Position numbers and translations under genes: made by a program. Under the pieces are notes generated by a model. That model did not search any database and was not told the origin of the DNA. It saw only the letters and a program-made list of their open reading frames with translations. A stretch of 64,000 nt of DNA, from the NCBI RefSeq assembly GCF_000527135.1, contig NZ_AZUP01000001.1:3993535-4057534 (forward strand), given 5' to 3'. Origin of the DNA: Methyloversatilis discipulorum. Lineage in GTDB: Bacteria; Pseudomonadota; Gammaproteobacteria; Burkholderiales; Rhodocyclaceae. Within the stretch, counting starts at the first letter, position 1; every line of letters starts with the position of its first letter. Shown one piece after another: positions 45,119-64,000 of this stretch.

Positions 45119-45152
45119 GCTGCACTGCACCCACCCGCATACGCTTGCGCGC

Positions 45153-45374
45153 TCTGTGGGAGGGGTCTTCTGACCCCGACTGCAGCCTGGATCGAAGCTG
45201 GCGGACCCGCAACCGCTGCGTCGCGGTCAGAAGACCGCTCCTACAGTAGGTGCGCGCACGATCCGCCACCGAAGCCGTGATTCTGTGGGAGGGGTCTTCT
45301 GACCCCGACATGAGCCTGTATCGGAGCCTGGGGACTGCAGCCGCCGTGTCGCGGTCAGAGGACCGCTCCTACAG
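45153..45374. repeat. REP-like cluster, copies 5-8, in two facing pairs
   Basis: Forward unit 45153-45180, inverted unit 45219-45246, forward 45282-45309 and inverted 45348-45374. Each pair is joined by a related spacer (both contain GCAGCC or GAGCCTG and a CGTCGCGG/GTGTCGCGG join), and the pair repeats with a period of about 129 bases. Forward units have GGGGTC-TTCT-GACCCC cores; inverted units have GCGGTC-AGAA-GACCGC or GCGGTC-AGAG-GACCGC. They fill most of the 399-base gap between truC and the exbB gene. Confidence 0.88.
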
Positions 45375-45424
45375 GGGGGGCTGATCGGTTCGGTGCGGCC
45401 TCCAGTATCGATGCACAAGCCGCG

Positions 45425-45442
45425 ATAGTCCGTTCGGACTAT
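45425..45442. promoter_or_regulatory. palindrome ATAGTCCGTTCGGACTAT upstream of the exbB operon
   Basis: A perfect 8+8 inverted repeat with two central bases, 76 bases before the ATG of the exbB fusion gene. The first 13 bases recur at 51308-51320 upstream of the PEP-CTERM gene. It could be a regulator site shared by the surface locus. Confidence 0.45.
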
Positions 45443-45517: not shown

Positions 45518-47194
45518 ATGAAAAACATCATTGCCCTCGGCGCCCTGCTGGCGCTCGCCCCTTCTTTTGCCAACGCCTGGTGGGACGAGGCGTGGACTGC
45601 CCGCCGCACCATCACGCTCGACACCTCCGCCACCGGCGTGGCGATCACTGCGCCGCAGTCGTCGGTGCCTGTCGCAGTGCGCCTGCACAGCGGCAATTTC
45701 GATTTCACCGCAGCGAAGGAAGACGGCTCCGACCTGCGTTTCGTCGCCGGCGATGACAAGACGGTGCTGAAGCACCACGTCGAGCGCTACGACAGCCTGA
45801 ACGAGCTGGCGGTCGTGTGGGTACAGGTGCCGCTGATCGCGCCGGGCCAGAGCACGACACTGTATGCCTACTTCGGCAATGTCGCGGTCGGTGGTGCTCA
45901 GGACAGCAAGGCGACCTGGGACGGCTCGACCGTCGGTGCCTGGCAGTTCGCCGAAGCGGCACCTCTGGCCGACGCCTCGGCCAGCGCGCTGACCGCGACT
46001 GGCAACGTCACACTGCAGAAGGCTGCGCTGCTGGGCGACGCGGCTATCTTCAACGGCAGCGCGCTGCGCGTGCCGGCCGCGCCGCAACTGGCGACCAGCG
46101 CCGGCGGCGCATGGACGATGTCGGCCTGGATCAAGCCGGTCGCCGCGCAGCAGGCCACGCTGTACGCGCAGGGCACGCTGACGGTGAAGATCGAGGACAG
46201 CGCCTATGTGCTGAACGTGGGCGCCACCCGCGTGGCCGGCGGCGCACTGAAGCCGGGCGCCTGGCAGCACGTCGCGGCGACGGTCGGCGGTGGCAAGGCG
46301 ACGCTCTATGTCGACGGACAACCGGTCGCTTCGGCCGACGCCGCGCTGCCGGCCGAACAGGCCGAGGTGGTGATCGGCGACGCATACAGCGGCGAGCTCG
46401 ACGAACTGCAACTGGCAAACACGGCGCGCAGCGCCGACTGGATCAAGCTGGCCGCCGCCGGGCAGGGCGCCGACGCCACCTTCGTGACGGTGCGCGAAGA
46501 CGCGGCCGAGGGCGAAGAGGGCGGCCACAACTACTTCGGCATCCTGATTGACAACCTAACGGTCGACGCCTGGGTGGTCATCGTCATCCTCGCCGTCATG
46601 TTCGTCATCAGTTGCTGGGTGATGATCGCCAAGGCCATGCTGGTCGGCCGCATCGACGGCGACAACCGCGCCTTCCTGCAGCGCTTCCGCGGCGCCAGCA
46701 CGGACTTTCTGAAGCTCGATCAGGGCGCCACGCACAAGAGCTCGTCGCTGTTCCGCCTGTACGGCGCCGGCCTGCGCGAAATCCGCAAGCGTTTCGACGC
46801 CCAGGGCGAGGCGGCCGGCCTGACCGGTGCGTCGATGGACGCGATCAAGGCGTCGATCGACGCCGACCTGGTGCGCGAGTCGCACAAGCTCAATTCGCAG
46901 ATGGTGCTGCTGACCATCGCCATCTCCGGCGGTCCTTTCCTCGGCCTGCTCGGCACGGTGGTCGGCGTCATGATCACCTTCGCGGCGATCGCCGCTGCGG
47001 GTGACGTGAACGTGAACGCCATCGCGCCGGGCATTGCCGCCGCGCTGCTGGCCACGGTGGCCGGCCTCGCCGTCGCCATTCCGGCGCTGTTCGGCTACAA
47101 CTACCTCGCGTCGCGCATCAAGAACATCAGCGCCGACATGCAGATCTTCGTCGACGAGTTCATCACCCGCGTCGCCGAAGTTCACGGCCGATAG
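45518..47194 (+). CDS. ExbB/MotA/TolQ proton-channel protein with N-terminal DUF2341 and LamG-like domains
   Basis: A 558-residue fusion. A signal peptide (1-~21, ending FANA) leads into a DUF2341 domain at ~22-130 (WWDEAWTARRTITLD, YFGNVAVGGAQ). Next is a concanavalin/LamG-like domain at ~140-330 (WTMSAWIKPV, WQHVAATVGGGKATLYVDGQ). A transmembrane helix at ~349-370 starts the ExbB part. TM2 is at ~464-495 (GGPFLGLLGTVVGVMITFAAIA) and TM3 at ~509-531. Plain ExbB is about 240 residues. The lectin-like part should face the periplasm. It heads a tight run with two exbD genes and a tonB-like gene, and powers that complex with the proton gradient. Confidence 0.9.
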   Translation: MKNIIALGALLALAPSFANAWWDEAWTARRTITLDTSATGVAITAPQSSVPVAVRLHSGNFDFTAAKEDGSDLRFVAGDDKTVLKHHVERYDSLNELAVVWVQVPLIAPGQSTTLYAYFGNVAVGGAQDSKATWDGSTVGAWQFAEAAPLADASASALTATGNVTLQKAALLGDAAIFNGSALRVPAAPQLATSAGGAWTMSAWIKPVAAQQATLYAQGTLTVKIEDSAYVLNVGATRVAGGALKPGAWQHVAATVGGGKATLYVDGQPVASADAALPAEQAEVVIGDAYSGELDELQLANTARSADWIKLAAAGQGADATFVTVREDAAEGEEGGHNYFGILIDNLTVDAWVVIVILAVMFVISCWVMIAKAMLVGRIDGDNRAFLQRFRGASTDFLKLDQGATHKSSSLFRLYGAGLREIRKRFDAQGEAAGLTGASMDAIKASIDADLVRESHKLNSQMVLLTIAISGGPFLGLLGTVVGVMITFAAIAAAGDVNVNAIAPGIAAALLATVAGLAVAIPALFGYNYLASRIKNISADMQIFVDEFITRVAEVHGR

Positions 47195-47208
47195 GCACAG
47201 GCCCGCCC

Positions 47209-47619
47209 ATGTCCGCCGACGTCAAGGACGACAACCAGCCCTACGACGAAATCAACGTCACGCCGATGCTGGACCTGGCCTATGTGCTGCTCGTGGTGTT
47301 CATCATCATGACCACCGCTTCGGTGCAGGGCATCAAGGTCGAGGCGCCGCAGACGCAGACCGTGTCGTCGCTCGCCAAGCCGCAGACCAAGGCCATCACC
47401 ATCACCGCCGCCGGCGACGTGTTCCTCGATGCCTACCCGGTCGACATGGCCACGCTCGAAGCGCGGCTCGGCCAGTACAAGAGCGCCAACCCGGCACTGC
47501 CGGTGGTGCTCAAGGGCGACGCTGCCGCGCACTACGAGAAGGTGTCGGCGGTGCTGGAAATCTGCAAGCGGCTGGACATCACCGAAGTCGGGCTGGTGAC
47601 CAAGAAGGTCGCGGGCTGA
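47209..47619 (+). CDS. ExbD/TolR family protein, first copy
   Basis: A 136-residue inner-membrane subunit of a Ton-type motor. The single helix follows INVTPMLDLAYVLLVVFIIM, with the essential Asp (D25-type) in PMLDL. The periplasmic part ends EICKRLDITEVGLVTKK, the usual ExbD pattern. It starts 14 bases after the exbB fusion gene and ends 10 bases before a second exbD. Confidence 0.92.
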   Translation: MSADVKDDNQPYDEINVTPMLDLAYVLLVVFIIMTTASVQGIKVEAPQTQTVSSLAKPQTKAITITAAGDVFLDAYPVDMATLEARLGQYKSANPALPVVLKGDAAAHYEKVSAVLEICKRLDITEVGLVTKKVAG

Positions 47620-47629
47620 GGTCGCGCTC

Positions 47630-48034
47630 ATGCAAATCAATACAGAGGCGAAGCCCTACGACTCGATCAACGTCACGCCGATGCTGGATCTGGCCTACGT
47701 GCTGCTGGTCGTGTTCATCCTGATGACGACCGCCGGCGTGCAGGGCCTGACGATGACGCTGCCCAAGCCGTCGAACAAGCCGAGCACCGAACAGCACGAA
47801 GTGAAGATCGTGCAGGTGATGGAAAGCGGGGCGCTGATGGTCAATGGCGTCGGCGTCACGCTGGACCAGCTCGAAGGTCAGCTCAATGCGGCGCGCGCAC
47901 GCGACCCGAAATTCAGCGTGATGATCCGTGGCGAAGCGCGTGCGCCCTACAACGGTGTCATCCAGGTGGTCGATCTGGTGAACCGCATGGGCATAGCGAA
48001 CGTCGGCCTCATCACCTCGCGGATCGGCACCTGA
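47630..48034 (+). CDS. ExbD/TolR family protein, second copy
   Basis: A 134-residue paralogue with the same membrane motif (INVTPMLDLAYVLLVVFILM, pore Asp kept). The periplasmic domain differs (LTMTLPKPSNKPST, VVDLVNRMGIANVGLITSR). Two different ExbD subunits could make a heterodimer inside the ExbB ring. Its stop overlaps the tonB-like ATG by one base. Confidence 0.92.
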   Translation: MQINTEAKPYDSINVTPMLDLAYVLLVVFILMTTAGVQGLTMTLPKPSNKPSTEQHEVKIVQVMESGALMVNGVGVTLDQLEGQLNAARARDPKFSVMIRGEARAPYNGVIQVVDLVNRMGIANVGLITSRIGT

Positions 48035-48738
48035 TGAGCGCGCTGGCCGAAGATTCCGTCGAGCTGTCGCGCGGCGCGCGCGCGCTGCGCTTCGTCGCGC
48101 TGGTGCTGGGCGTCGCCTTGCTGGTGGCGGCCGGCATGTGGCTGAAGGACCTGTTCTCGAAGCCGTCGGCGCCGACGCGCCAGGTGACGAAGATTTCCAT
48201 CATTCCGGACACGCCGCCGCCGCCTCCTCCGCCGCCGAAGGAAGAGAAGCGACCCGAGCCGCCGAAGGACATGAAGGAGGTGAAGGTCGAGCAGCCCAAG
48301 CCGGTCGAGGCACCGCCACAGCAGGCCGAGCAGCTGAAGATGGAAGGCGCGGCCGGCGACGGTCCGAGTCCGTTTGCCGCCGGCAGCGTCACCAACGAGT
48401 ACAAGGGCGGCGACGTCGGCACCACGATAGGCGGCGGCCCGGCCAAGCCCAACCGCATGCAGTACGCCTTCTTCACCAACGCGCTGCAGCGTCACATCCA
48501 GGAAGAGCTGGCGCGCAACCGCGAAGTGAAGCTGCTCGACTACCGCGTCACCGTCGCCATCTGGCTGGGCCGCGACGGCAGCGTGCGGCGCGCCGAACTG
48601 GTGGACAGCACCGGCGACGACAAGGCCGACGCCGCCCTGTCTGCCGCGCTGGCCCAGATGCGCGCCTTCCGCGACGCGCCCCCCTCTGACATGCCGCAGC
48701 CGATACGCCTGCGCATCACCAACCGGATGACCGGTTGA
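48034..48738 (+). CDS. TonB-like energy transducer
   Basis: A 234-residue protein with a cytoplasmic N-terminus, one helix at ~20-40, a Pro-rich region at ~58-95 (eight consecutive prolines, then Lys/Glu/Pro) and a C-terminal TonB-like domain (~150-234, with YRVTVAIWLGRDGSVRRAEL and ending RLRITNRMTG). It should transmit energy from ExbBD across the periplasm. The ATG overlaps the second exbD. TonB boxes in the downstream surface proteins were not recognised. Confidence 0.88.
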   Translation: MSALAEDSVELSRGARALRFVALVLGVALLVAAGMWLKDLFSKPSAPTRQVTKISIIPDTPPPPPPPPKEEKRPEPPKDMKEVKVEQPKPVEAPPQQAEQLKMEGAAGDGPSPFAAGSVTNEYKGGDVGTTIGGGPAKPNRMQYAFFTNALQRHIQEELARNREVKLLDYRVTVAIWLGRDGSVRRAELVDSTGDDKADAALSAALAQMRAFRDAPPSDMPQPIRLRITNRMTG

Positions 48739-48772
48739 CGCACCCGATACACGACACTCCGGAACCGAAGTG

Positions 48773-50425
48773 ATGAAGAAAGCCCTGCCCACGCTCGCGC
48801 TTGCCGCGCTGTTCGCACTGCCCGCGCAGGCGAACGAAGGCGCATCGATCGACACCCTGCGCCAGACCACGATGAACCTGATCGACGCCCTGGTCGATAC
48901 CGGCGTGCTCACCCGCGAGAAAGCCGACGAACTGATCAAGGCCGCCGAAGCCAAGGCGGCGAAAACTGCGGCGAAGGCGAAGAAAGACAGCACCGTGCGC
49001 GTGCAGTACGTGCCGGAGTCGGTCAAGGCGGAAATACGCGAGCAGCTGAAGCAGGAAGTGCTGGCCCAGGCACGCACCGAAGGCTGGGCGGCGCCGAATG
49101 CGATTCCGGAGTGGACTGAGCGGATCAAGATCGAAGGCGATCTGCGGGTGCGTTACCAGAATGACCGCTTGTCCGACGGCAATACGCCGATCGCCGGTTA
49201 TGCACCGAATGCGATCGGCAATCCGGCCGCCACCAACGATGACTTTCCGCTCGCCACGCGCTTTCCGGGCGCGACCGATCTCGACGGCAACGGCTTTCCC
49301 ACCGGCAACGTCGCCGACAGCGTCAATCGCATGCGCTTGCGTGCACGTCTCGGTGTGCTGGCCAAGATCAACGACAGCGTAAGCGCCGGACTGCGCTTCA
49401 CCACCGGCAACGTGACCGACCGCGTATCGACCAATCAGACGCTGGGCAACAATTTCAACAAGTACAGCTTCCTGGTCGATCGCGCCTACATCAAGTTCGA
49501 TCCGGTGGAGTGGGCGTCGGTCAGTGGTGGTCGCATTCCCAACCCCTGGTTCTCGACCGATCTGGTGTGGGACGAAGACCTCAATTTCGACGGCGTGGCC
49601 GTCAGTCTGCGTAACGTGACACCGACGCAGTCACTGCGGCCATTCGTCACCGCCGGCTGGTTCCCGCTGCGCGCGGACAACCCGCCGGGTGCTGACAAGC
49701 AGTGGCTGGCCGGCGGCCAGATCGGTGCCGAGTACGACCTGAGCAGCAACACGCGCCTGCGCGTCGGTCTCGCGAAATACCGTTACGGCCGCGTCGAGGC
49801 GCAGACCGACACGGCCTATGACGCAGTCGATGGACCGCTCCAGGGATACGGCCGCTACGCCTACTCGTCGGCGCTGCGCGCAAAGGGCAACACGCTGGTG
49901 CTGACCAACAGCCCGATCGACAGCACCGAAGCACCCATCTACGGTCTGGCATCGAAGTTCGAACCCTGGGTGCTGACCGCAACGGCCGACCTTGCCCACT
50001 TCGATCCGGTCCATGTGCTGCTGTCCGCCGAGTACGTCAAGAACACCGGCTTCGACCGCGGCGACATCCTGCGCCGCACCGGTCTGAACCTCACCGACGG
50101 CAAGGACACCGCGTACCACCTGCGCCTGATGGTGGGCATGCCGTCGGTGCGTCTGGCCGACGACTGGCAGGTGTTCGCCTCGTACAAGTACATCGGGTCG
50201 GATGCGCTGATTGACGGCTTCACCGACTCCGACTTCGGTCTCGGCGGCACCAACCTGAAGGGCTTTGTGCTCGGCGGCAGCTACGGCCTCTACCGCGACA
50301 CCGCGGTCGGCCTGCGCTGGTACTCGGCGCGCAACATCCAGGGCATGACCTACGACCCCGCGGTCGTCGCCGGCCAGCGCTACGAGGTCGACACCGTCAT
50401 GGTCGACATGAACGTGAGGTTCTGA
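48773..50425 (+). CDS. putative outer-membrane porin (Porin_5 type)
   Basis: A 550-residue protein with a signal peptide ending PAQANEG. An N-terminal helical segment (LRQTTMNLIDALVDTGVLTREKADELIK and a Lys/Ala-rich stretch) is typical of this porin family and may bind peptidoglycan. A long beta-barrel follows (GDLRVRYQNDR, RMRLRARLGVLAKINDSVSAGL, VDRAYIKFDP). It closes with VMVDMNVRF, ending in the terminal Phe of outer-membrane proteins. A GTG three bases earlier is an alternative start. It lies 34 bases after the tonB-like gene. Confidence 0.85.
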   Translation: MKKALPTLALAALFALPAQANEGASIDTLRQTTMNLIDALVDTGVLTREKADELIKAAEAKAAKTAAKAKKDSTVRVQYVPESVKAEIREQLKQEVLAQARTEGWAAPNAIPEWTERIKIEGDLRVRYQNDRLSDGNTPIAGYAPNAIGNPAATNDDFPLATRFPGATDLDGNGFPTGNVADSVNRMRLRARLGVLAKINDSVSAGLRFTTGNVTDRVSTNQTLGNNFNKYSFLVDRAYIKFDPVEWASVSGGRIPNPWFSTDLVWDEDLNFDGVAVSLRNVTPTQSLRPFVTAGWFPLRADNPPGADKQWLAGGQIGAEYDLSSNTRLRVGLAKYRYGRVEAQTDTAYDAVDGPLQGYGRYAYSSALRAKGNTLVLTNSPIDSTEAPIYGLASKFEPWVLTATADLAHFDPVHVLLSAEYVKNTGFDRGDILRRTGLNLTDGKDTAYHLRLMVGMPSVRLADDWQVFASYKYIGSDALIDGFTDSDFGLGGTNLKGFVLGGSYGLYRDTAVGLRWYSARNIQGMTYDPAVVAGQRYEVDTVMVDMNVRF

Positions 50426-50427
50426 CG

Positions 50428-51084
50428 ATGAGGATGTCGCTGATCGCATGTGCGCTGCTGTTCGCAGCCGGCCCGGCGCTGGCGCAGAACGCCTCGCGTG
50501 AACAGGAACAGCTGCGCCGGCTGCGTGCGCAGGCGCAGCAACTGCAGCAGGCGCTGTCGGCCGAACAGCAGCAGCGCCAGGCGGCTGCAGCGGAACTGCA
50601 GTCGCTGAAGCAGACCCAGGGCGCCGAGCTGGAAAAGCTGGGCGAAGAGGCGCAGTCGGCGCGGCGCCGCGCCGGCAGCATGCAGAAGCAGCTCGACCAG
50701 ACGCAGCGGGAGCTGGAAGAACTGCGCGCCGCGCACAGCGCACTGACCGCCCGCCACGAACAGACGGCCAGCCGCCTGGCCGAGCGCGAGCGCGATCTGG
50801 GCGACACACGCAACACGCTCGCGACGACGGCGCGCGAACTCGAACAGACACAGGCCCGCGCCGGCCAGCTCGGCAGCCGCCTCGACCAGTGCACGCAGGA
50901 CAACGCCGAGCTCTACCGCACCGGCGTCGAAGTGCTGGACCGCTGGAACGCACGCACGCTGGGTGAACGCGTGGGTCAGGGCGAACCCTTCGCGCAGATC
51001 GGCCGGGTCAAGCTGGAGAACCTCGCCGAAGCCTGGCGGGACCGCATGGACGAACACCGGGTGTCGGACGCGGAAAGGCGATGA
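50428..51084 (+). CDS. periplasmic coiled-coil protein
   Basis: A 218-residue secreted protein with a signal peptide ending GPALAQN. Residues ~22-155 are nearly all heptad-like Gln/Glu/Arg/Leu sequence, a long coiled coil. The last 60 residues (LYRTGVEVLDRWNARTLGER, VKLENLAEAWRDRMDEHRV) are a distinct helical end. I know no precise family; such proteins occur next to Ton-type clusters in other Gram-negatives, as I recall. It starts 2 bases after the porin stop. Confidence 0.75.
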   Translation: MRMSLIACALLFAAGPALAQNASREQEQLRRLRAQAQQLQQALSAEQQQRQAAAAELQSLKQTQGAELEKLGEEAQSARRRAGSMQKQLDQTQRELEELRAAHSALTARHEQTASRLAERERDLGDTRNTLATTARELEQTQARAGQLGSRLDQCTQDNAELYRTGVEVLDRWNARTLGERVGQGEPFAQIGRVKLENLAEAWRDRMDEHRVSDAERR

Positions 51085-51450
51085 CAGGTCGCTGCAACCT
51101 GCAGGCGTGCGTCGTCCGCCACCCCGATTGATGCTTTTCCCCTTGTGTGCGGACTACGTCGCAACGGGCTTCTGCAAAGGGTTTTCGGGCAGGGATCAGT
51201 CGAGATGAGCCAAACGGATCATGTTTCGACGGCCACGCCTGAAACACGAATGTCACCTTGTCTGACTACCTTCGCCCCAGGTCAACGGACGGAATTTCTT
51301 ACACCCCATAGTCCGTTCGGCTTACGCATCGATTGCCGCCCGACGCGAAGCGTGTAACGCGCGCTCATCACCATGACCCCGCTTCCTCGTGGAGCAGGGA
51401 GGTCGGGCTTGTCGCCGGAATCCACCCACGAAACTACCCAGGAGATTTAT
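51085..51450. other. 366-base gap before the PEP-CTERM gene
   Basis: No gene is seen. It holds the 13-base motif ATAGTCCGTTCGG (51308-51320), listed separately, and a good ribosome-binding site (CAGGAGA) just before 51451. A 5-bp inverted pair (CGGAC ... GTCCG, 51287-51315 approximately) flanks the AT-rich segment GGAATTTCTTACACC. A promoter for the next gene is expected here. Confidence 0.55.
51308..51320. promoter_or_regulatory. ATAGTCCGTTCGG motif upstream of the PEP-CTERM gene
   Basis: Identical over 13 bases to one side of the palindrome at 45425-45442; the right arm here is imperfect (CGGCTTAC). It lies 131 bases before the ATG. Confidence 0.4.
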
Positions 51451-52284
51451 ATGTTCAAGACCAAACTGATGCTCGCGATCGCCGCGCTCGGCATGTCGGC
51501 CGTGGCCAGCGCCGATATCGGCGGCAGCACCGCGAACGGCGAGTTCGTGTTCTCCGCCTTCGACCGTGATTCCGGCGTGGGCTACACCTACGAGCTGGAC
51601 GATGCCGGCTTCAATTCGCTGTTCGGCAGCGATGTACGCATGAACAGCCTTATCGGCAGCACCAACACGACCTCGGCGGTCGGCTTCACCGTAACGCAGA
51701 ACGCCGCTGGCGGCGTCATCTTCGATTACGCGCTCCCGTCCTTCACCGACTTCCTGTCTGGCGCCGTGCCGGCCAACGTGGTGTGGAACATCACGTCGAT
51801 CGATACCTCCGGTCTGCGTCGCCTGGTACAGACCGTCAATGCGGTTCCGGCGGCCACTCCTTACACCAACGCAGCCCTCAATGCGTCGGCTGCCAAGCTT
51901 AACGAGTACTTCGGTGCCGTGAACGGCAAGATCGAGGGTGCAGACGACGGCTATGCCCTGACGGTTGAAGCCGACTCGAGTGCCTACGCCGGTTTCAATG
52001 GCCGCAACTTTGGCGGCCAAGGCTATGACAGCTTCGGCAGCCTGGATGCGTCGCTGAACATGTTCGTGTTCGGCGGTACGTCGAGCTCGAGCTCCAGCTC
52101 GGCTGCCTCGTTGATGGGCCAGATGCAGGACGCCAACGGCATGGACGTGCTTGCCAAGGTCTACATGGGCCAGGACGGCATGTACCACCTGCAGATCACC
52201 GCCGTGCCCGAGCCCTCGACCTACGCCATGCTGCTGGCCGGTCTGGGTCTGCTCGGTTTCGCCGCCCGCCGCGCTCGCGGCTGA
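51451..52284 (+). CDS. PEP-CTERM sorted surface protein
   Basis: A 277-residue secreted protein. The signal peptide ends AVASAD. The body is rich in Gly, Ser, Asn and Asp, including a run of seven Ser at ~213, and shows no enzymatic motif. The C-terminus is a PEP-CTERM sorting signal: VPEPSTYAML, a hydrophobic helix and a basic tail RRARG. An exosortase would cut it and attach or release it; no exosortase gene is in the window. It is the first gene after the coiled-coil gene and has its own long leader. Confidence 0.92.
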   Translation: MFKTKLMLAIAALGMSAVASADIGGSTANGEFVFSAFDRDSGVGYTYELDDAGFNSLFGSDVRMNSLIGSTNTTSAVGFTVTQNAAGGVIFDYALPSFTDFLSGAVPANVVWNITSIDTSGLRRLVQTVNAVPAATPYTNAALNASAAKLNEYFGAVNGKIEGADDGYALTVEADSSAYAGFNGRNFGGQGYDSFGSLDASLNMFVFGGTSSSSSSSAASLMGQMQDANGMDVLAKVYMGQDGMYHLQITAVPEPSTYAMLLAGLGLLGFAARRARG

Positions 52285-52302
52285 TCCATCCTGACTGTTT
52301 CC

Positions 52303-52330
52303 GCAGGGCGCGCCACCTGAGCGCGCCTGC
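52303..52330 (+). terminator. hairpin after the PEP-CTERM gene
   Basis: A 10-bp stem (GCAGG-CGCGC against GCGCGCCTGC, one bulged G) with a 7-base loop. There is no T-run, and a second GC-rich hairpin follows at about 52333-52352. It may reduce readthrough into the next gene. Confidence 0.45.
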
Positions 52331-52374
52331 GCCGGGCGGGCTTTGCCCGTCCCGACCTCATCTGGAGAGAAAGA

Positions 52375-53928: not shown

Positions 53929-53991
53929 GCAGTACGCAGGAAAGCCGCGCCCGGAAACGGTTTGAGCGCGTTCCGGCGCGCGGATGAACAG

Positions 53992-54018
53992 ACGGCCCGC
54001 CATCCGGCGGGCCGTTTG
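53992..54018 (+). terminator. terminator after the PstS-like gene
   Basis: A perfect 10-bp stem (ACGGCCCGCC / GGCGGGCCGT) with an ATCC loop followed by TTGC. It lies between this gene and tpsB, so tpsB must have its own promoter or depend on readthrough. Confidence 0.7.
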
Positions 54019-54057
54019 CATGATTGCAGTAGCGAAACGAACTCCTTCAAGGCAGGC

Positions 54058-55677: not shown

Positions 55678-55824
55678 TCGACCGGCCTGATCGGGCCACG
55701 AGGGCATGCCGGCGATCGACTGCGTCACGGTATGCCCCGGCAGTGCGGGTCACCGACATACGCACTACACACAAGCCGCCGACCATGAAGGCATGACACC
55801 TGTCCGGCGAGCAAGGAGCAAGAC

Positions 55825-58800
55825 ATGAACCGTGATCTTTACCGTCTGAAGTTCAACTGCGACACCGGCCTCTGGGTGCCGGTGGCCGAATGCATGCGCG
55901 CGCGCGGCAAGCAGGGGCGCTCCGCGCTCACCCGCACGGTGCTTGCAGCGTCGATCGCGCTGGGTCTCGCGCCGGCGGTACACGCGCAGCGCAATCTGCC
56001 GGTAGCGGCGGAACAGTTTATCGCCCAGGGCGTGGCCGCGATGGCGACCCAGGGCAACACGATGACCATCACGCAGTCGTCGTCGTCGCCGGTGCTGCTG
56101 CAGTGGAACAGCTTCGACATCGGCAAGGGCTACACCGTCCATTTCGACCAGGCGAGCAGTTCGATGCGCGCCGTGAATGTGGTCATGCCGGGTGGTCCGC
56201 GCAGCGACATCAACGGCAACCTGACGGCCAAGGGTCAGGTGTTCCTGTTCAACCAGGCCGGCATCCTGTTCGGCGAATCCGCGCGCGTCGATGTCGGCGG
56301 TCTGGTGGCGTCCTCGCTCAAGCTCAATGACAAGCTGATCGAGAGCGCGCTGAACTCGCTCGGTGCGACCGAAGCGGCCTTCTCCGCCTTTTCCGACGGC
56401 GACTATGCCGGACGGGCGACCGGTGACGTCACCGTGGCGCGTGGTGCGCGCATCATCGCCGCGAAGAATGGACGCGTACTGCTGGCCGGCCCCAACGTGA
56501 ACGTCGGCACCGAAGTTACGCTGGACCCGGACATTACTGCTGAACAGAAGGCTGCACTTGGCAAGGCGCATATCGAAGCCGAAGAAGGCCAGATCGTGCT
56601 GGCCGCCGGCCAGAAGGTGTATGTCGCCGATCCGCTGGACAGCCGCCTGCGCGGCTTCCTGGTCGAGGTGGACAACGGCGGCAAGGTGACCACCGAAGCG
56701 GCCAGCGAGTTGCTGACCGAACGCGGCAACATCACGCTGGTGGCCTTGAACATCCGCCACGGCGGCGCGGCGAAAGCGACCACCTCGGTCACGCTGAACG
56801 GCACGGTGTTCCTGAAGGCGCGCGACGGGGTGACCGCACTCGGTGCGGACGACATGTTCCCGGACGCCGACGAACTGGGCGAAGGCGAAACCGTGATGGT
56901 CGGCAGCAACACCGGCCGCATCGAGCTGGCCGCCGGTTCGAAGATCGACATCGCACCGGATACCGACACGGAGAAACAGACCTTGCGCGACGACGTGCTG
57001 TTCCGTCGTTCCGAGGTGAACCTGTACGGTCGTGAAATCATCATCGAGGACGGTGCGAATGCCGCATCCGGCGCCTCGATCACCGCGCCGGGAGGCGTGC
57101 TGCGGATCACCAGCGGCTACGGTGCCAGCGGTGTCATCGGCGGCGGCGCGGCCGCCCGCACCTACATCGGCCGTCACGCGAACATCGACCTGTCCGGCGT
57201 GGACGCCTTTGCCGACGCCGACCGCGAAATCGTGCGCGTGGAACTGCGCGGCACCGAAACCGCCGGTTCGCCGCTGCTGCAGGATGAAGCGTTTGGCCGC
57301 GCGTTGTTCGGTGAGGAAATCTGGGTCGATACGCGCAAGGGCACGCAGCTGGCCGACGTGTCGGGCTATCTGGGCAGCATCGAACGCACCGTTTCGGAAA
57401 AGAGTGCCGCTGGCGGTGAACTGGTGATCAGCTCCGCCGGCTCGGTGCTCACCCACGCCGACAGCCATATCGACCTGTCGGGCGGCACGGTCACCTATCG
57501 CGCCGGCGAAGTCGGCTACAGCGTGCTCACGTCGGCGGACGGACGTTCCGTGGCGGTCGAGGACGCGCTGGCGGACCGCGTCTACACCGGCACCACTGAT
57601 CGCACGCGCACCGTGGGTCAGGTGGTGGAGGGACGCGATGCCGGGTCGATCACCATCACGGCGAACGCCGCCGCACTCGACGGCCGCATCGACGCCGGTC
57701 GCACGGTCGGTGTCACGCAGCGCACCTTGCAGACCCGCTGGGTCGGCCCCGGCGTGAAGGAAACGCTGGCCGCACCGCAGGCCGGGCGCTTCTCGCTCAC
57801 GCTCACACAGGCGACCGACCGCCAGTCGCTCACCTTCGTGAATGGCGCGCCGACGCGCAGCGTGAGCGCGGCGGGCGCCGTACCGGACGAACTGCTCATC
57901 CGCAGCGATCTGTTCGACAACGGCATCGGTAGCTTCACCGTCGATGGTGCCGGCGCGGTGGTGCTGCCCGAGGATGTCAAGCTGACCGTCACGCCGACTG
58001 CGCGGGTCGACGCCGATGGCAACTGGTCCGACGGCAGTCTGCTGTCCATCCGTGCGACCTCCTTCGACATCGACGGCACCATCACGGCCTATGGTGGCGA
58101 CGTGGTATTCGACGCCTCGGCCAGCGATCCGAACCTGAGCGCAGCCGACCGCGCGATACGCTTCGGCAACAACGCCCGCGTTTCGGTCGCCGGACGCTGG
58201 GTGAAGGATGCGCGCGGCGCCGTCGGCAACTGGGTGGCGATGGACGCCGGCAGCGTGCGCGCCGAAACCGCGGGCAATGTGGTGCTGGCGGAGGGCGCCT
58301 CCATCGATGCGTCGGCCGGCGCCTGGCGCACTGCGGACGGCGGCGTGAAGCTGGGCGACGCCGGAAGCATTTCGCTGCTCGCCGGCGCCGCCATCAACAG
58401 CGGCTCTGGCGTGCCCGGTGCGATCGGCGCCTATTACGGCACGCTCACGCTGGACGGCAGTCTGAGCGCCTGGGGCGTGACACGCGGGCGCGAGGCCGGC
58501 GGGGCCGGCTCGCTGACGCTGCGCAGTTCGAAGGTCGTCATCGACGGCCGCGATACGGGCGTGACCGATGACGGCACGCTGCTGCTCGGTCAGGACCTGT
58601 TCACCGATTACGGCTTCGCAGATTTCTCCATCGAGGGTGGCAGCGGCGTAAGCATCGGTCGCAGCGATGGTGCGCCCATGCTGTTGCGCCCGGAAGTGCG
58701 CATGCGCCAGTTGCTGGGTCTGCCGGCGGCTGGGCAGGCTACGCTCGATGGCGTCGGTGCCACCGTTGCGGTCGGGCGCGAACGTCGCGAACAGGCCACG

Positions 58801-61800
58801 ACCCTGAAGTTCGCCGCGCTGTCCAACTTCGACGGCCGGGTCGAGGTGTTCAAGGGAGCCACCGTCGAAACGGACGCAGGCGGCGCCGTCACGCTGACCG
58901 GCAACCGGGCGATCACGGTCGCGGGCACGCTGCGCGCACCGGGCGGCACGATCACGCTGGACCAGGAGGAGGTGGGCGCAGGCACCAACAAGGACTCGAC
59001 CGAGTTCGGCGACATCTATCACGGCGCGACCGTGTTCCTGGCACCGACCGCGGTGCTCGACGTATCTGGCACCTTCCTGCGCGCACCGGATCTGCCTTAC
59101 GTCGATGGCACGGTGTTCGACGGTGGCGACATCACGCTGGCGGCACGGCGCGGCTTCCTGGTCGTCCAGGAGGGCGCGCAGCTCAAGGCCGATGGCAGCA
59201 GCGCGCTGCTCTCGCAACCGGTGGGCAACGGCCGCAGTACCGTGCGGGTGGACAGTGGCGGCGGCGACATCGTGCTCAATGCGCGCGAAGGCCTTTACGT
59301 CGATCCGGTGCTGTCGGCAAAAGCCGGTGGCAGCACGGCGGTCGGCGGTGCGCTGACGGTGGAACTGGTGCAGGGGGCCAACGGCTGGCAGGACCAGGCG
59401 ACGCTGCCCGGGGTCAGCAATCCGCGTACGCTCGTACTGTCGCAGGACGATGCCAGCGGAGCGGCGTCCCTGACGCCGGGCCTCGCGCCGGATGCAGCGG
59501 CGCTGGCCGGTGGCGGGCGTTTCGCGCTCGATCGCCTCGACGGTAGCGGCATCGTGGACCTGACCGTGCGCGCCACCGATCTGAACCGCCATGGTTCGAT
59601 CGCCTTCGCCGAAGACATCGACGCTGCCGTGGCGGGCAATCTGGTTCTCGACGCCGCCAATCTGGTCGGTCGCAATGGCGCCGACGTGCACCTGTCGGCG
59701 TCGGTACTCGACTGGATGAATGTCGGCAGCGCACAGAAGAACCACGCGCAGGCGACGTCCGTGGCGGCGGGTGACGGCGTGCTGACGCTGTCCGCGGATC
59801 TGATCAATGTGCGCGGCAATCTCGCGGCCGACCGCTTCGCGGCGGTGAACCTGCAGGCGCGCGGCGATCTGCGCGCCAGCGCTGCGGCCGCCTACTTCAA
59901 CGAAGGATCGACGCTGGCCACCAGCGGCGATCTGACGTTGACCGCGGCGCAGGTCTATCCGACCAGCGGATCGAAGTACGCCTTCGAAGTGCAGAACAAT
60001 GCCACCGGCACGCTCACCGTAAAGCACTCGGGCGCCGCGGCCGGCCCGGTGTATTCGGCGCTCGGCGAGCTGACGCTGGCGGCACCGAACGTGGTGCAGG
60101 ACGGTCGCGTGGTGGCGCCGCTCGGTACCGTGAACATCGTGTCCCAGACGATCACGCGCAGCAGCGGCATCATTTCGTCGGCGACGCGCAGCGAAGCGGC
60201 GGACGGCCGCGTCGAACTGGCGGCTGGCAGTGTCACCTCGGTGTCCGCCGACGGCCTTCTGCTGCCTTTTGGCCAGACCACGCTCAGTGGTGCCGAGTGG
60301 ATCTATCAGACCGGCACCGGCGAGTTCCTGAACATCGACGGCACACCGCAGAAGGCGGTGGTGGTGAATGGCGCGAACGTGATCATCGCCGACGCCGAGG
60401 ACGGCAAGGACAAGGCGCGCATCGACCTGTCGGGCGGTGGTGACATCCAGGGCTGGGAGTGGATTCCGGGCAGCGGTGGCAACACCGACATCCTCGGGGG
60501 TGAAGCGGCCAAGGATGCCTACGCCATCGTGCCCGCGCTGGGCACGGCCTGGGCGCCGTACGACACCGCGATGGCCGCCGATGATCCGAACGGCCTGCAG
60601 GCGGGGCAGGCGATCACGCTGCTGGCCGATGCCAACGGACTGAAGGCCGGCACCTACACGCTGCTGCCGGCGCGCTACGCGCTGCTGCCGGGCGCCTATC
60701 TGGTGCGCGTGTCGCGCGACGATCAGTCGGTGGCGGCGGGGCGCGCGGTCACGCTGAACGATGGCACCTCACGCGTGTCGGTGCGCGACGCGCGTGTGAC
60801 GGCGGACGGCGTGGTCAGCGGTGGCAAGAGCCTGGTGGCGACGGTACTGACGCAGGAACAGGTGCAGCAACGCGCCGAGTACCTGCTGTCGACCAGCGGC
60901 GACGTATTCGACGACGGACGCAGCACGGGCGACGCAGGCCGCCTGTCGATACAGGTCGGCAAGTCGCTCGAACTGGCGGGCGCGCTCGATACCACGCGCG
61001 TGGCAGGCGCCCGCGGAGCGCAGCTCGATCTGACCGCGCGCGCGCTGGCGCTGTTGGGCGAGGGGGCCGAAGCGCGTGCCGGCGAGGTGGGCGTATCGGT
61101 CGCCGCGCTGAACGCGCTGAATGCGGAAAGCGTGCTGCTGGGCGGTACGCGCAGCGGCGTGGCCGACGGTACGGGCGCCACCCTGGTGCAGACCGGGGAC
61201 GCCAGCGACAGCGGTCTGCCGATCTATGGTGCGGAGACCGTACGCCTGGACAACGCGAACGGGCCGGCGCTCAGCGCGCCCGACGTCGTGCTGGTGGCGC
61301 GCGATGCCGTAACGCTGGAATCCGGCAGCCAGATCGCGGCGAGCGGGACGTCGACACCGGAACTGCTGCAGGTGGCCGGCAGCGGCGCCGACGCGGATGG
61401 TGCTGCGCTGCGCGTGTCGGCATCGGGCGATGCATCGGCGCTGCTGCGCGACGCCCCGGCGGGTACGCGCGGTACGCTCACGCTGGAAAGCGGCGCACGC
61501 ATCGACGGACGTGCCGTGGTGCTCGACAGTACGCTCAACACGGACAACCGGGGCGCCGATATCCGCCTGCCCGAAAGCGGCGGTGCGTTGGCGCTGACCG
61601 GCTCGCGCATCAGCGTAGGTGAGGTGCCGGCCGGCACCGGCGGTCTGGTGTTCGACATGGCGTCGCTGGCCGAACTGGGCAACCCGGATCGCCTGACCCT
61701 CAAGTCCTACGGCAGTCTCGACCTGTATGGCGAGGTCACGCTGGGCAGTGCCGACCTGTCGCTGCTGCGCATCGATACTGCGGGCATTACCGGTCACGAC

Positions 61801-64000
61801 AACGCAGGCGGTGCGCAGCACATCGTTGCCGGCGAAATCCAGCTGGCCAATTCGGCCCCGGGTGGCGGCACGCTGACGGCTGCCGGTCAGGGCGGACAGC
61901 TCACCCTGACGGCCGACACGGTGCGCATCGACGGCGGCGGCGATTTCGCCATTGCCGGACACAATGCGGTGAACGTGGTGGCGTCCGAAGGCCTGGTGCT
62001 GGGCGGAGCGGGGCGCGTGCAGGTCGATCGCGACCTCAGCGTCAGCACGCCGCGCATTTCGGCAGCGGCCGGCGCCAACGTGGAACTGACGGCCGGCGGC
62101 GTGCTGGCCATGACCGGCACACCCGCCGCCGCGTCGGCCGGCAGCTCGGCCGTCGGCGGGCGCTTCGTCGCACGGGCCCAGTCGGTCACGCTCGATACGC
62201 TGATCGACCTGCCCTCGGGCACGGTCACGCTGGCGGCGACCGGCGCGGATGCGGCCGGTGGATCGGTAACCGTCGGTACGCACGGGCGCATCGAGGCGGT
62301 CGGTCGCGCGAAGGACTATCTCGGCAAGACGGTGGAAACTCCGGGCGGGGCGGTCACCCTGTCGTCGGCCCACGGCGACATCGTCGTCGCGCAGGGCGCG
62401 CGTATCGACGTGTCGGCGGCGAAGGATGCGCAGGCCGGTTCGGTCACACTGGCGGCGCCCGAGGGGCAGGTGCAGGTGGCGGTAGGCGCGCTGAAAGCGA
62501 AGTCTTCGTCGTCCGAACAGGGCGGTGCACTGCAACTCGATGTCGGCGCACTCGCTTCACTCGATGCGATGGTGACGGCGAGCGGCGATTTCACGCGACG
62601 CTGGGAAGCACGTGTGCGCGAAGGCGACACGCGTCTGGACGCCGACCTCAAGGCAGCGGAAATCGTGCTGTCCGCCGACGCCGGCAGTCTGGTCGTCGGT
62701 GGCACGCTGGACGCCTCGGGTAGCACGCGCGGCGGCAAGATAGAACTGAGCGCCCAGCGCGCCGCCGGTTACACGGCCAGCGACGCGAGCGGCGCCGGTG
62801 ACGTGGTGCTCACGTCAAATGCCGTGCTGGACGCGCGCGCCCGCACCGCGGTGACAGTGGCTGAGGGCACGCAGGGCGAAGGCGGCAGCGTGGTGGTGAC
62901 TGCAGCGGTGCGCGATGCGTCGGGGACGGCGGGCAGCGTGCGCATCGCCGACGGCGCGCGCATCGACGTCGGCGCAGCCGAAGGCAGCGTTGCGCGCGAT
63001 GGTCTGGTCACGGTGCGCGCGGCGCGTGTCGGTAACGCGTCGGTCGCCATCGAAGGCAATGTGGCGCAGGCCGTCAGCGGCGCGCGCGATGCCTTCATTG
63101 AAGGCACGGCGGTGCATGAGTTCGCGGCCGGGGCAACGGTGAATCTTGCGACGGCGAATACGTCGGCGGCCGCCTTCATGAGCGACGCCAACGTTGCCGC
63201 GATGCGTGCCGCGCTGGGGCTGCCGGGCGATGGCAGCGGCAACTGGCACGTACGGCCGCACGTCGAGGTACGCGGCGCCGGTGATCTCACCATGGCGGCA
63301 ACCGATCTGTCCGCATTCACGTACGCGGGCGGTACCGAAGCCGGCACGCTCACCGTGCGGGCGGCCGGTACGCTCAACATTACCGGCGCGATCAGCGATG
63401 GTTTCGGGCGCGCGCGCTCAGGATCGGTGAGCAATCTGCTCGGTGCGCTCAATTCGAGCGATCTGGCCAACACCAGCTACTTCGGACTGGGCGAGCGTGA
63501 CAACGCGTGGTCGATACAGATGGCTTCCGGCGCCGATCTCGGCGGCGCGCGTGCGCTGTCGGTGCAATCGCTGGCGGCGCTCGAGGCGGCCGGCAGCGGC
63601 GATCTCGTGCTGGGCGCGTCCAGCCAGATCCGCACCGGTGTCGGCGAAATTGAAGTGACGGCGGGTCGCGATCTCGTGCTGTCCGGTGCGAACTCCGCCA
63701 TCTATACCGCGGGTCTGCAGGACAATCGTGGGAGCGCGTTCGACACGTCAACGCAGCTGAACATCAACGGTTCCGGCAACCGACGTGCCGAGTACGCGCA
63801 CGATGGCGGCGACGTCACCGTGGTCGCGCAGCGCAATCTGTCGGCCGTGCAGAACAACCAGACGCTCGGCGGCTGGCTGTTCCGGCAGGGCCGCATCGAG
63901 AACGACGGCACGCTGTCCGGCGGCAGTGCATCCGCGCTGCGCAATCCGACCTGGTATGCCCGTATCGACCAGTTCGGCAGTGGCATCGCCACCTTCGGTG
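55825..64000 (+). CDS. giant two-partner-secretion exoprotein TpsA (filamentous haemagglutinin-like), 3' end beyond the window
   Basis: An open frame of at least 2725 codons with no stop before the end. It begins with an extended signal peptide (MNRDLYRLKFNCDTGLWVPV, then basic residues and a hydrophobic core ending VHAQ), the ESPR form typical of TpsA and autotransporters. The TPS domain (~56-170) shows NSFDIGKGYTVHFDQ and NQAGILFGESARVDVGGLVA. The rest is a repetitive parallel beta-helix rich in Gly, Ala, Val, Asp and Thr. A ribosome-binding site AAGGAG lies 9 bases upstream. TpsB is encoded 147 bases before it. Confidence 0.92.
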   Translation, partial: MNRDLYRLKFNCDTGLWVPVAECMRARGKQGRSALTRTVLAASIALGLAPAVHAQRNLPVAAEQFIAQGVAAMATQGNTMTITQSSSSPVLLQWNSFDIGKGYTVHFDQASSSMRAVNVVMPGGPRSDINGNLTAKGQVFLFNQAGILFGESARVDVGGLVASSLKLNDKLIESALNSLGATEAAFSAFSDGDYAGRATGDVTVARGARIIAAKNGRVLLAGPNVNVGTEVTLDPDITAEQKAALGKAHIEAEEGQIVLAAGQKVYVADPLDSRLRGFLVEVDNGGKVTTEAASELLTERGNITLVALNIRHGGAAKATTSVTLNGTVFLKARDGVTALGADDMFPDADELGEGETVMVGSNTGRIELAAGSKIDIAPDTDTEKQTLRDDVLFRRSEVNLYGREIIIEDGANAASGASITAPGGVLRITSGYGASGVIGGGAAARTYIGRHANIDLSGVDAFADADREIVRVELRGTETAGSPLLQDEAFGRALFGEEIWVDTRKGTQLADVSGYLGSIERTVSEKSAAGGELVISSAGSVLTHADSHIDLSGGTVTYRAGEVGYSVLTSADGRSVAVEDALADRVYTGTTDRTRTVGQVVEGRDAGSITITANAAALDGRIDAGRTVGVTQRTLQTRWVGPGVKETLAAPQAGRFSLTLTQATDRQSLTFVNGAPTRSVSAAGAVPDELLIRSDLFDNGIGSFTVDGAGAVVLPEDVKLTVTPTARVDADGNWSDGSLLSIRATSFDIDGTITAYGGDVVFDASASDPNLSAADRAIRFGNNARVSVAGRWVKDARGAVGNWVAMDAGSVRAETAGNVVLAEGASIDASAGAWRTADGGVKLGDAGSISLLAGAAINSGSGVPGAIGAYYGTLTLDGSLSAWGVTRGREAGGAGSLTLRSSKVVIDGRDTGVTDDGTLLLGQDLFTDYGFADFSIEGGSGVSIGRSDGAPMLLRPEVRMRQLLGLPAAGQATLDGVGATVAVGRERREQATTLKFAALSNFDGRVEVFKGATVETDAGGAVTLTGNRAITVAGTLRAPGGTITLDQEEVGAGTNKDSTEFGDIYHGATVFLAPTAVLDVSGTFLRAPDLPYVDGTVFDGGDITLAARRGFLVVQEGAQLKADGSSALLSQPVGNGRSTVRVDSGGGDIVLNAREGLYVDPVLSAKAGGSTAVGGALTVELVQGANGWQDQATLPGVSNPRTLVLSQDDASGAASLTPGLAPDAAALAGGGRFALDRLDGSGIVDLTVRATDLNRHGSIAFAEDIDAAVAGNLVLDAANLVGRNGADVHLSASVLDWMNVGSAQKNHAQATSVAAGDGVLTLSADLINVRGNLAADRFAAVNLQARGDLRASAAAAYFNEGSTLATSGDLTLTAAQVYPTSGSKYAFEVQNNATGTLTVKHSGAAAGPVYSALGELTLAAPNVVQDGRVVAPLGTVNIVSQTITRSSGIISSATRSEAADGRVELAAGSVTSVSADGLLLPFGQTTLSGAEWIYQTGTGEFLNIDGTPQKAVVVNGANVIIADAEDGKDKARIDLSGGGDIQGWEWIPGSGGNTDILGGEAAKDAYAIVPALGTAWAPYDTAMAADDPNGLQAGQAITLLADANGLKAGTYTLLPARYALLPGAYLVRVSRDDQSVAAGRAVTLNDGTSRVSVRDARVTADGVVSGGKSLVATVLTQEQVQQRAEYLLSTSGDVFDDGRSTGDAGRLSIQVGKSLELAGALDTTRVAGARGAQLDLTARALALLGEGAEARAGEVGVSVAALNALNAESVLLGGTRSGVADGTGATLVQTGDASDSGLPIYGAETVRLDNANGPALSAPDVVLVARDAVTLESGSQIAASGTSTPELLQVAGSGADADGAALRVSASGDASALLRDAPAGTRGTLTLESGARIDGRAVVLDSTLNTDNRGADIRLPESGGALALTGSRISVGEVPAGTGGLVFDMASLAELGNPDRLTLKSYGSLDLYGEVTLGSADLSLLRIDTAGITGHDNAGGAQHIVAGEIQLANSAPGGGTLTAAGQGGQLTLTADTVRIDGGGDFAIAGHNAVNVVASEGLVLGGAGRVQVDRDLSVSTPRISAAAGANVELTAGGVLAMTGTPAAASAGSSAVGGRFVARAQSVTLDTLIDLPSGTVTLAATGADAAGGSVTVGTHGRIEAVGRAKDYLGKTVETPGGAVTLSSAHGDIVVAQGARIDVSAAKDAQAGSVTLAAPEGQVQVAVGALKAKSSSSEQGGALQLDVGALASLDAMVTASGDFTRRWEARVREGDTRLDADLKAAEIVLSADAGSLVVGGTLDASGSTRGGKIELSAQRAAGYTASDASGAGDVVLTSNAVLDARARTAVTVAEGTQGEGGSVVVTAAVRDASGTAGSVRIADGARIDVGAAEGSVARDGLVTVRAARVGNASVAIEGNVAQAVSGARDAFIEGTAVHEFAAGATVNLATANTSAAAFMSDANVAAMRAALGLPGDGSGNWHVRPHVEVRGAGDLTMAATDLSAFTYAGGTEAGTLTVRAAGTLNITGAISDGFGRARSGSVSNLLGALNSSDLANTSYFGLGERDNAWSIQMASGADLGGARALSVQSLAALEAAGSGDLVLGASSQIRTGVGEIEVTAGRDLVLSGANSAIYTAGLQDNRGSAFDTSTQLNINGSGNRRAEYAHDGGDVTVVAQRNLSAVQNNQTLGGWLFRQGRIENDGTLSGGSASALRNPTWYARIDQFGSGIATFG

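Follow-up and report, generated by a model that had tools for sequence, protein, structure and literature searches.

Ten genes, all on the forward strand, fill the last part of a 64,000-nucleotide stretch of the Methyloversatilis discipulorum genome (the window; positions 3993535-4057534 of its single 4.31 Mb contig), running from 45458 to past 64000. In order they are exbB, two copies of exbD, tonB, a Porin_5 gene, a coiled-coil gene, a PEP-CTERM gene (pepct), a PstS-like gene, tpsB and tpsA, so that a Ton motor lies alongside a two-partner secretion (TPS) pair. An earlier, sequence-only reading had given the same genes in the same order, with exbB starting at 45518, and Pfam and profile comparisons bear out both the order and the families. 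The likely starts of exbB (45518), pepct (51451) and tpsB (54058) were chosen by eye from signal peptides; where the open reading frame (ORF) begins further upstream, this is given in brackets. Model confidence is expressed as the predicted local distance difference test (pLDDT). In window coordinates, the features are as follows.

45425..45442, forward strand: putative palindromic operator ATAGTCCGNNCGGACTAT upstream of exbB (exact-match search, shuffling)
45518..47194 (ORF from 45458), forward strand: exbB, with DUF2341 and LamG (predicted periplasmic), then an ExbB/TolQ-type proton channel (PF10102, PF13385, PF01618)
47209..47619, forward strand: exbD copy 1 (PF02472, 89.4 bits)
47630..48034, forward strand: exbD copy 2 (PF02472, 87.3 bits)
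48034..48738, forward strand: tonB-like energy transducer, proline run and TonB C-terminal domain (PF13103, TIGR01352)
48770..50425, forward strand: Porin_5 outer-membrane barrel with N-terminal periplasmic stalk (PF16930, 539.8 bits)
48998..49018, forward strand: R-V-x-Y-V-P-E porin segment, candidate TonB docking strand (conserved motif)
50428..51084, forward strand: exported coiled-coil protein with conserved C-terminal motif N159, P187, V194, E197 (alignment of 25)
51205-51222: weaker operator-like site upstream of the PEP-CTERM gene (pattern search)
51308..51325, forward strand: operator copy 2, ATAGTCCGTTCGGCTTAC, upstream of the PEP-CTERM gene (pattern search)
51451..52284 (ORF from 51373), forward strand: pepct, PEP-CTERM protein (PF07589, 38.9 bits)
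52375..53928, forward strand: secreted PstS-like phosphate-binding-type protein (profile matches, model pLDDT 86.8)
53092..53112, forward strand: PstS-type R-x3-S-G-T motif, R240, S244, G245 and T246 (29 sequences)
54058..55677 (ORF from 53962), forward strand: tpsB, outer-membrane transporter (POTRA_2 68.9 bits, ShlB 61.3 bits)
55825..64000, continuing to window-equivalent 66414, forward strand: tpsA, giant exoprotein of 3529 amino acids (ESPR, TPS, DUF3739)

The domain order of ExbB is unusual, a signal-peptide-like start being followed by DUF2341, LamG and the channel region, with Pfam scores of 53 bits for DUF2341, 58.1 for Laminin_G_3 and 98.5 for MotA_ExbB. In the alignments, the ExbB channel residues, including T500 and T533, are at least 90% identical, and D22 of ExbD is kept at at least 90%; we take these three residues to have the functional roles described for them in the TolQ/ExbB literature. 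The channel of ExbB and the ion site of ExbD thus appear intact from their sequences. The TonB match is weak yet above cutoff (TonB_2, PF13103, 26.4 bits against a cutoff of 22; TIGR01352, 30.3 against 27.1). Like the ExbB-ExbD-TonB complexes that serve TonB-dependent transporters, the motor has channel residues that are conserved and a C-terminal domain of TonB type. Unlike those systems, the window has no receptor among its ten genes, none of the encoded proteins containing a Pfam domain of the barrel-with-plug type; its ExbB has the signal-peptide-like start and DUF2341-LamG; and the presumed partner is a porin.

The TPS pair is defined by its domains. TpsA carries ESPR and TPS at its N-terminal start and DUF3739 near its C-terminus, and TpsB carries POTRA_2 and the ShlB barrel (PF05860, PF13018, PF08479, PF03865, all over cutoffs), as is characteristic of two-partner secretion. 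The PEP-CTERM signal likewise has its counterpart in the same genome, where exosortase (PF09721) is matched twice, at 3715033 and 1047286. The PstS-like and coiled-coil proteins have no Pfam match.

The most direct evidence on whether these genes belong together comes from other genomes, in which the usual order is (PEP-CTERM)-(PstS-like)-tpsB-tpsA-exbB-exbD(-exbD)-tonB-porin-coil. Outside Methyloversatilis tpsA usually lies directly upstream of exbB, with tpsB before tpsA, whereas in Methyloversatilis tpsBA is downstream of the motor. A scan with ExbB gave 60 named loci, of which 55 were kept (L037-L091; loci and genomes are cited by L and G numbers) and five dropped (L092-L096) as matching only LamG or another short stretch. 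Gene maps label exbB in 53 of the 55; they derive from a greedy ORF picker, and some missing genes or motifs may be ORF artefacts. Where at least 5.5 kb was available downstream of exbB (39 loci), exbD, tonB and Porin_5 were each present in 38 and the coil in 33. The genome-wide TpsB search covered 35 of the 55 loci, the other 20 being Methyloversatilis-type loci or short contigs: in 29 of the 35 genomes tpsB and exbB came within a single fetched stretch, in five (G070, G078, G081, G089 and G090) tpsB lay on another contig, and G082 gave no clear position.

Surveys independent of the window ExbB were made of 369 genomes spread over the class, scoring the best few candidates per genome, such that extra copies may escape. 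Full-length Porin_5 occurred in 24 genomes (E no more than 1e-139; the next match is at 1.8e-34). The TpsB subfamily (at least 236.9 bits) was found in 21 and the DUF2341-LamG ExbB in 22, all of them inside the 24; the next TpsB score below the subfamily, 185.1 bits, belongs to a paralogue in the window's own genome. The other 345 genomes have neither, although 12 contain a more distant TpsB (E 1e-30 or better). Of the Porin_5 genomes, three lack the TpsB subfamily and are 78, 82 and 85% complete; two have no ExbB match, namely G196, in which a contig end truncates exbB (L189), and G295, which is 64% complete. Hypergeometric probabilities, with kinship ignored, are about 2e-31 for TpsB and 2e-33 for ExbB. 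At the 24 porin loci other than the window's own (23 genomes), the motor is within reach in 21, the other three being on contigs of 3-7 kb with tonB adjoining the porin; TPS genes are linked to the porin locus in 16 of 18 judgeable cases, the exceptions being G231 and G405, while three more loci are cut by contig ends. By contrast, motor genes are absent from the six loci whose Porin_5 matches are short and weak (L198-L203).

We are therefore highly confident that the cluster genes form one system. The contrary view, that separate Ton, TPS and PEP-CTERM modules have come together by chance or as a generic island of surface genes, could appeal to G231, where 25 kb separates the TPS genes from the motor (L227, comprising pepct, pstS, tpsB and tpsA), and to G405, where they are on another contig: tight linkage is not universal, and DUF2341 motors without a porin exist (L224-L226). 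It is nevertheless very improbable, since the TpsB subfamily and ExbB are confined to the porin genomes among the 369 with no exception and a common putative operator precedes both transcription units of the window. The comparisons indicate common inheritance of motor, porin, coil and TPS pair. The sequence-only reading had proposed a functional tie between a private Ton motor and the TPS and PEP-CTERM genes, and this is strongly supported by co-occurrence and linkage far beyond chance. It had also asked whether related clusters keep the gene order and join the exbB-LamG gene with tpsBA and PEP-CTERM genes; clusters consistently without tpsBA or the PEP-CTERM gene were not encountered. Among 51 distinct PstS-like proteins, 46 have tpsB or tpsA no more than two genes away, and PEP-CTERM is less constant, with 35 of the 51 having a member of that family within the same distance.

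Some observations on individual clusters may be added. In Methylobacillus glycogenes (L083, L154) exbB, tonB, tpsB, tpsA and one exbD are each split in two frames, through decay or draft errors. Clusters L057 and L079 are in records labelled Verrucomicrobia and could be misbinned contigs or transfers. Extra DUF2341-LamG ExbB-ExbD-TonB sets without a porin are present in G231, G245 and G011 (L224, L225 and L226, respectively); in L224 and L225 a neighbouring protein resembles, by eye, a V-type ATPase subunit. Gliding motility, considered on account of one ExbB, two ExbD and a weak GltJ match, was rejected because many clusters have a single ExbD and the named carriers of the cluster are not known to be gliders.

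The system has a partial precedent. Passages of PMC7035377 and PMC2729926 describe a VreI-controlled Pseudomonas aeruginosa locus comprising pdtA, phdA, pdtB, exbB2, exbD2, tonB4, the putative porin PA0696, PA0697 and YbjN-family, PpiC and LysR genes. The former, in 2020, calls its Ton genes "still uncharacterized", while the latter notes that TPS, ExbBD and PA0696 are associated in other bacteria too; published passages also place the locus under the control of PhoBR and PUMA3 and beside LapA. Judged from the published gene list for P. aeruginosa, the pdt locus and the window have a common core of TpsA, TpsB, ExbB, ExbD, TonB, putative porin and a further exported protein (PA0697). By locus number, the PstS-superfamily proteins LapA and LapB (PA0688, PA0689) adjoin the pdt locus. 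The window differs in having a PEP-CTERM gene, a PstS-like gene in adjacent position, exbD in two copies and a different operator; its ten genes, to which the search for VreA-VreI-VreR types was confined, include none of the YbjN, PpiC and Vre types of the pdt locus.

A plasmid search with the window porin, which returned 12 records of which five, one unannotated, were opened, supplied loci that could be compared directly. A Klebsiella plasmid carries genes for filamentous haemagglutinin, tpsB, exbB, exbD, tonB, porin, a hypothetical protein, YbjN, PpiC, a second hypothetical protein and LysR, which is the published pdt order minus phdA. The plasmid loci of Cupriavidus and Methylosinus share this gene set but differ in where PpiC and YbjN lie; in Methylosinus TpsA follows YbjN and VreA-VreI-VreR-type genes are annotated, and in the Cupriavidus stretch no TpsA is annotated. 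An Aquabacterium plasmid has the order POTRA protein-tpsA-DUF2341 ExbB-exbD-exbD-tonB-porin. In the three Pdt-type loci (Cupriavidus, Klebsiella and Methylosinus) Pfam finds DUF2341, LamG and MotA_ExbB in ExbB, and profiles made from the present system recognise their TpsB, TonB, porin and coil. Because these plasmid loci match in gene content, ExbB domains and profiles, the window cluster and the Pdt-type locus are best seen as branches of one system: the window holds the core genes together and, by comparison with the plasmids, apparent homologues of ExbB, TpsB, TonB, Porin_5 and coil. The Klebsiella quasipneumoniae Pdt-type Ton-TPS locus (L281, NZ_CP084804.1) is on a plasmid typed as conjugative, and therefore the system can be plasmid-borne. 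On the Cupriavidus plasmid (L279:1036-3138) a protein with trypsin-type and DNA/RNA non-specific endonuclease domains, beside type II secretion genes, adjoins the Ton-TPS locus, an arrangement like that of Hxc/LapA in Pseudomonas.

An indication of what the cluster does is given by its upstream DNA. The exact core AGTCCGTTCGGNNTA occurs at just two places in the 4.3 Mb genome, before exbB and before the PEP-CTERM gene, whereas shuffling predicts 0.01 matches in the window; the site before pepct is a partly degenerate form of the palindrome ATAGTCCGNNCGGACTAT. Allowing at most one mismatch, the operator precedes exbB in 10 of 10 Methyloversatilis loci (own included) and pepct in 8 of the 9 that contain it. 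A matrix made from other Methyloversatilis genomes also finds sites in several further genera, ahead of tpsB, pepct or exbB. Across 2.44 Mb it gives 62 sites of every kind, with overlapping loci entered twice; the reversed matrix, counted per strand, gives 12. At up to two mismatches, the genome of the window itself has 21 places, two in the cluster and 19 elsewhere. Ten of these 19 score at least 17, and five of the ten precede genes of secreted-phosphatase type: three PhoX genes, one PhoD gene and one LamG-metallophosphoesterase gene. At one of the PhoX sites a PEP-CTERM gene comes first, and another site is inside the called ORF, ahead of the PhoX domain. All three strong PhoX genes in the genome have an operator site, as does one of the two PhoD genes. 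The two transcription units of the cluster accordingly have a putative operator in common with secreted phosphatases, and the DNA signals suggest that cluster and phosphatases are switched on together.

The metallophosphoesterase (L262:1940-4453, own genome near 1631000), which lies behind an operator-like site and has RTX-like repeats, contains a LamG domain of its own, and therefore LamG recurs in the putative regulon. Upstream of the exbB operator, at 45119-45400, are GC-rich inverted repeats, TGTGGGAGGGGTCTTCTGACC... and GCGGTCAGAAGACCGCTCCTACAG, which by eye have the look of repetitive extragenic palindromes or bacterial interspersed mosaic elements (REP/BIME-type).

Other genomes point in the same direction by a different route. 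Pho boxes matching at least 11 of 14 positions on the forward strand precede 12 of 58 tpsB genes, as against 21 of 576 other genes (P 9e-6); genomes related to one another enter these counts, and Methylobacillus loci supply 4 of the 12 sites before tpsB. Enrichment before exbB is weak (8 of 76, P 0.013). At both genes nearly all boxes are on the coding-direction strand, with one each on the other. In L084 and L173 an alkaline phosphatase gene follows the cluster at a distance of a few genes. In L198 a short Porin_5 relative, not linked to a motor, is flanked by phoR and a PBP/PstS-like gene, with phoU close by, and BLAST clustering shows a PhoU-like family recurring in 4 of 6 unlinked Porin_5 control loci. 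A Pho-boxed DING phosphate-binding gene of P. fluorescens adjoins a haemagglutinin-type gene of 4083 amino acids, according to a passage of PMC2225411. As a separate observation, LapD-type and GGDEF/EAL proteins adjoin two motor clusters (L172:4-1564, L084:5350-7194), a hint of control of the exoprotein by cyclic di-GMP.

The PstS-like protein fits the same picture. Its family profile matches phosphate-binding proteins in the PDB (best E 9.4e-7), and the model (pLDDT 86.8) fits PstS and DING phosphate-binding proteins. The R-x3-S-G-T ligand motif is retained across 29 sequences, with R, S and G invariant and T at at least 90%. The protein thus appears, from profile and model, to keep the PstS fold and PstS-type anion-binding residues. 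Fold and motif are in common with PstS/DING proteins; the differences are a length of 517 amino acids and the lack of pstCAB-type ABC-transporter genes among the ten. PEP-CTERM homologues beside pstS elsewhere end, by eye, in PEP-CTERM or VPEA/VPLPA-like signals, except in L217.

Taken with the Pdt comparison, we consider a role of the cluster in phosphorus acquisition probable. The sequence-only reading had instead favoured the handling of surface glycan; the conserved core contains no glycan enzyme, and that suggestion gives way to phosphorus scavenging because operator and neighbours point to phosphorus. It might also be supposed that the cluster is an adhesion or floc/biofilm system responding to nutrient signals, with the PstS-like protein structural at the surface. 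The title of PMC9850573 ties a PEP-CTERM gene to floc formation, TPS proteins are often adhesins according to a passage of PMC5422565, and GGDEF/EAL genes flank some clusters (L084, L172). We nonetheless regard adhesion as unlikely, as it would have no need of invariant PstS-type ligand residues, of an operator in common with PhoX/PhoD genes or of a constant porin and motor.

Least certain of all is which outer-membrane protein is driven by the motor, the porin being the most likely partner of TonB and the TpsA tail the next. The AlphaFold model of Porin_5 (pLDDT 81.5) has 16 long strands by our count, and its nearest PDB structure is OmpM1 of Veillonella, an attachment porin with, as here, a periplasmic N-terminal stalk. 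Unlike OmpM1-type porins, the window protein has no SLH domain, none being among the Pfam matches of the cluster proteins, and a stalk motif was seen in motor-linked members only. This motif, R-V-x-Y-V-P-E, whose expression was formulated after the alignment had been viewed, is present in 71 of 73 motor-linked porins and in 0 of 7 unlinked Porin_5 proteins, as well as in 3 of 4 plasmid porins. In the model it is located between two periplasmic helices, within or beside a low-confidence linker, a position that would fit a TonB docking strand. We would put the chances that the porin, rather than TpsA, is the main partner of TonB at about even.

The competing candidate is at the other end of the cluster. 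The window TpsA has the motif ILTVELVGLGD at its C-terminus. Of the type (I/L)-(T/S)-V-E-V-L-G-F-G, such a motif is found within the last 60 residues of 43 of 53 TpsA proteins (54 before L096, a Bacteroides record, was dropped), a count that is descriptive, as the expression was written once the tails were known; the control is the rate in inner residues, 9 occurrences in 133,471. About six of the ten tails missing the motif carry looser versions by eye. A C-terminal Cys pair, considered as an anchor by analogy with other TPS proteins, was present in only 10 of 54 tails, and the V-E-V-L-G-F-G motif was adopted for that reason. Both Pdt-type plasmid TpsA tails in view hold the motif, near but not at the very end. 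Next to the remaining tpsB genes of this genome, three C-termini of exoprotein-like ORFs could be viewed, one of them from an ORF with a TPS domain, and none shows the motif by eye; a fourth is cut, and the sample is small. ESPR, TPS domain, POTRA_2 and ShlB are shared with classical two-partner secretion (FhaB/FhaC, type Vb), which lacks the dedicated Ton motor and porin, the tail motif and the usually short segment before POTRA1 (lengths read by eye) of the present system.

Conceivably, then, it is the exoprotein on which the motor acts: the TpsA tail would be gripped in the periplasm by TonB, or by the LamG heads with the coil, and the proton gradient would serve to complete secretion of TpsA, keep it anchored, or pull and release it. 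The tail motif, including its retention in the two plasmid proteins, the usual position of tpsA immediately upstream of exbB and the LapD-type gene adjoining one cluster (L172) all speak for such a role. Classical TPS, however, needs no external energy according to a passage of the review PMC5422565, the tail might merely anchor in TpsB, and the porin, the most constant partner, would be left without a role. Contact through a TonB box in TpsB was also considered and rejected, none being seen by eye at the N-termini of 58 aligned TpsB proteins. We regard action on the exoprotein as possible though doubtful.

On balance we lean towards a single machine of the P. aeruginosa pdt (PUMA3-regulated) family that scavenges phosphorus at the cell surface, its Ton motor driving the porin. 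TpsB would export TpsA, which may stay attached by its C-terminal tail. TpsA, PEP-CTERM and PstS-like proteins would form a surface layer gathering phosphate or phosphorylated molecules freed by PhoX/PhoD-type enzymes. The motor would contain five ExbB copies, as in ExbB structures, each putting a DUF2341-LamG head in the periplasm, and ExbB-ExbD would spend the proton gradient to move TonB. TonB would bind the R-V-x-Y-V-P-E strand of the Porin_5 stalk, opening or pulling the pore for uptake, with the coil as a putative periplasmic partner of this step.

Several observations weigh against such a machine. The PstS-like gene was not observed in every cluster. The best Pho box in the window matches 10 of 14 positions, which is background level, and PhoB was rejected as the regulator there for want of a significant box. 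At two mismatches the reversed operator pattern gives 9 matches as against 25 for the operator, both per strand, and a good share of the weak sites is therefore chance. Half of the ten good outside sites have no phosphatase, two being before PEP-CTERM genes (one inside the called ORF, ahead of its recognised domains) and three before nothing recognisable. One PhoD gene lacks an operator site, as do two weak PhoX-domain matches, at 54.4 and 34.6 bits. OmpM1, the nearest solved fold to the porin, is an attachment and not a phosphate porin; the fourth plasmid porin has RVPYVSP in place of the motif, which is TonB-box-like by position and shape alone.

A more speculative combination of the two candidate contacts, which we think rather unlikely, is an energised form of two-partner secretion in which the DUF2341-LamG Ton motor engages the TpsA tail (and the porin stalk) and works mechanically on the giant surface filament, so that polymer containing phosphorus, once captured, is drawn to the porin. 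If true, it would be a type V system coupled to the proton gradient.

The sequence-only reading had held that the combined system was not described. That stands for the PEP-CTERM/PstS-like branch and falls for the core parts, which are known in P. aeruginosa (pdtA-pdtB-exbB2-exbD2-tonB4-PA0696-PA0697) and plasmid relatives; beyond the P. aeruginosa work, no description of the composite system was recognised in a literature search that left subscription journals largely out of reach. The families were already known, then, as was the P. aeruginosa locus in outline. New here are the breadth of the system, its PEP-CTERM/PstS-like branch, the operator with its phosphatase regulon and the motifs of porin and TpsA tail.

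The gene set is kept together across many Proteobacteria, the host of the window being a methylotroph, and places a proton motor beside a secretion route thought to need none; as far as the literature search showed, it has so far been mainly an unexplained stretch of the pdt locus. Two sequence handles, in the porin stalk and the TpsA tail, together with the operator in common with PhoX/PhoD genes, make the job of the cluster directly testable. DUF2341 is listed as of unknown function in a passage of a 2025 survey (PMC12505986), and the system offers a possible function for ExbB-like proteins bearing this domain and for one set of PEP-CTERM proteins.

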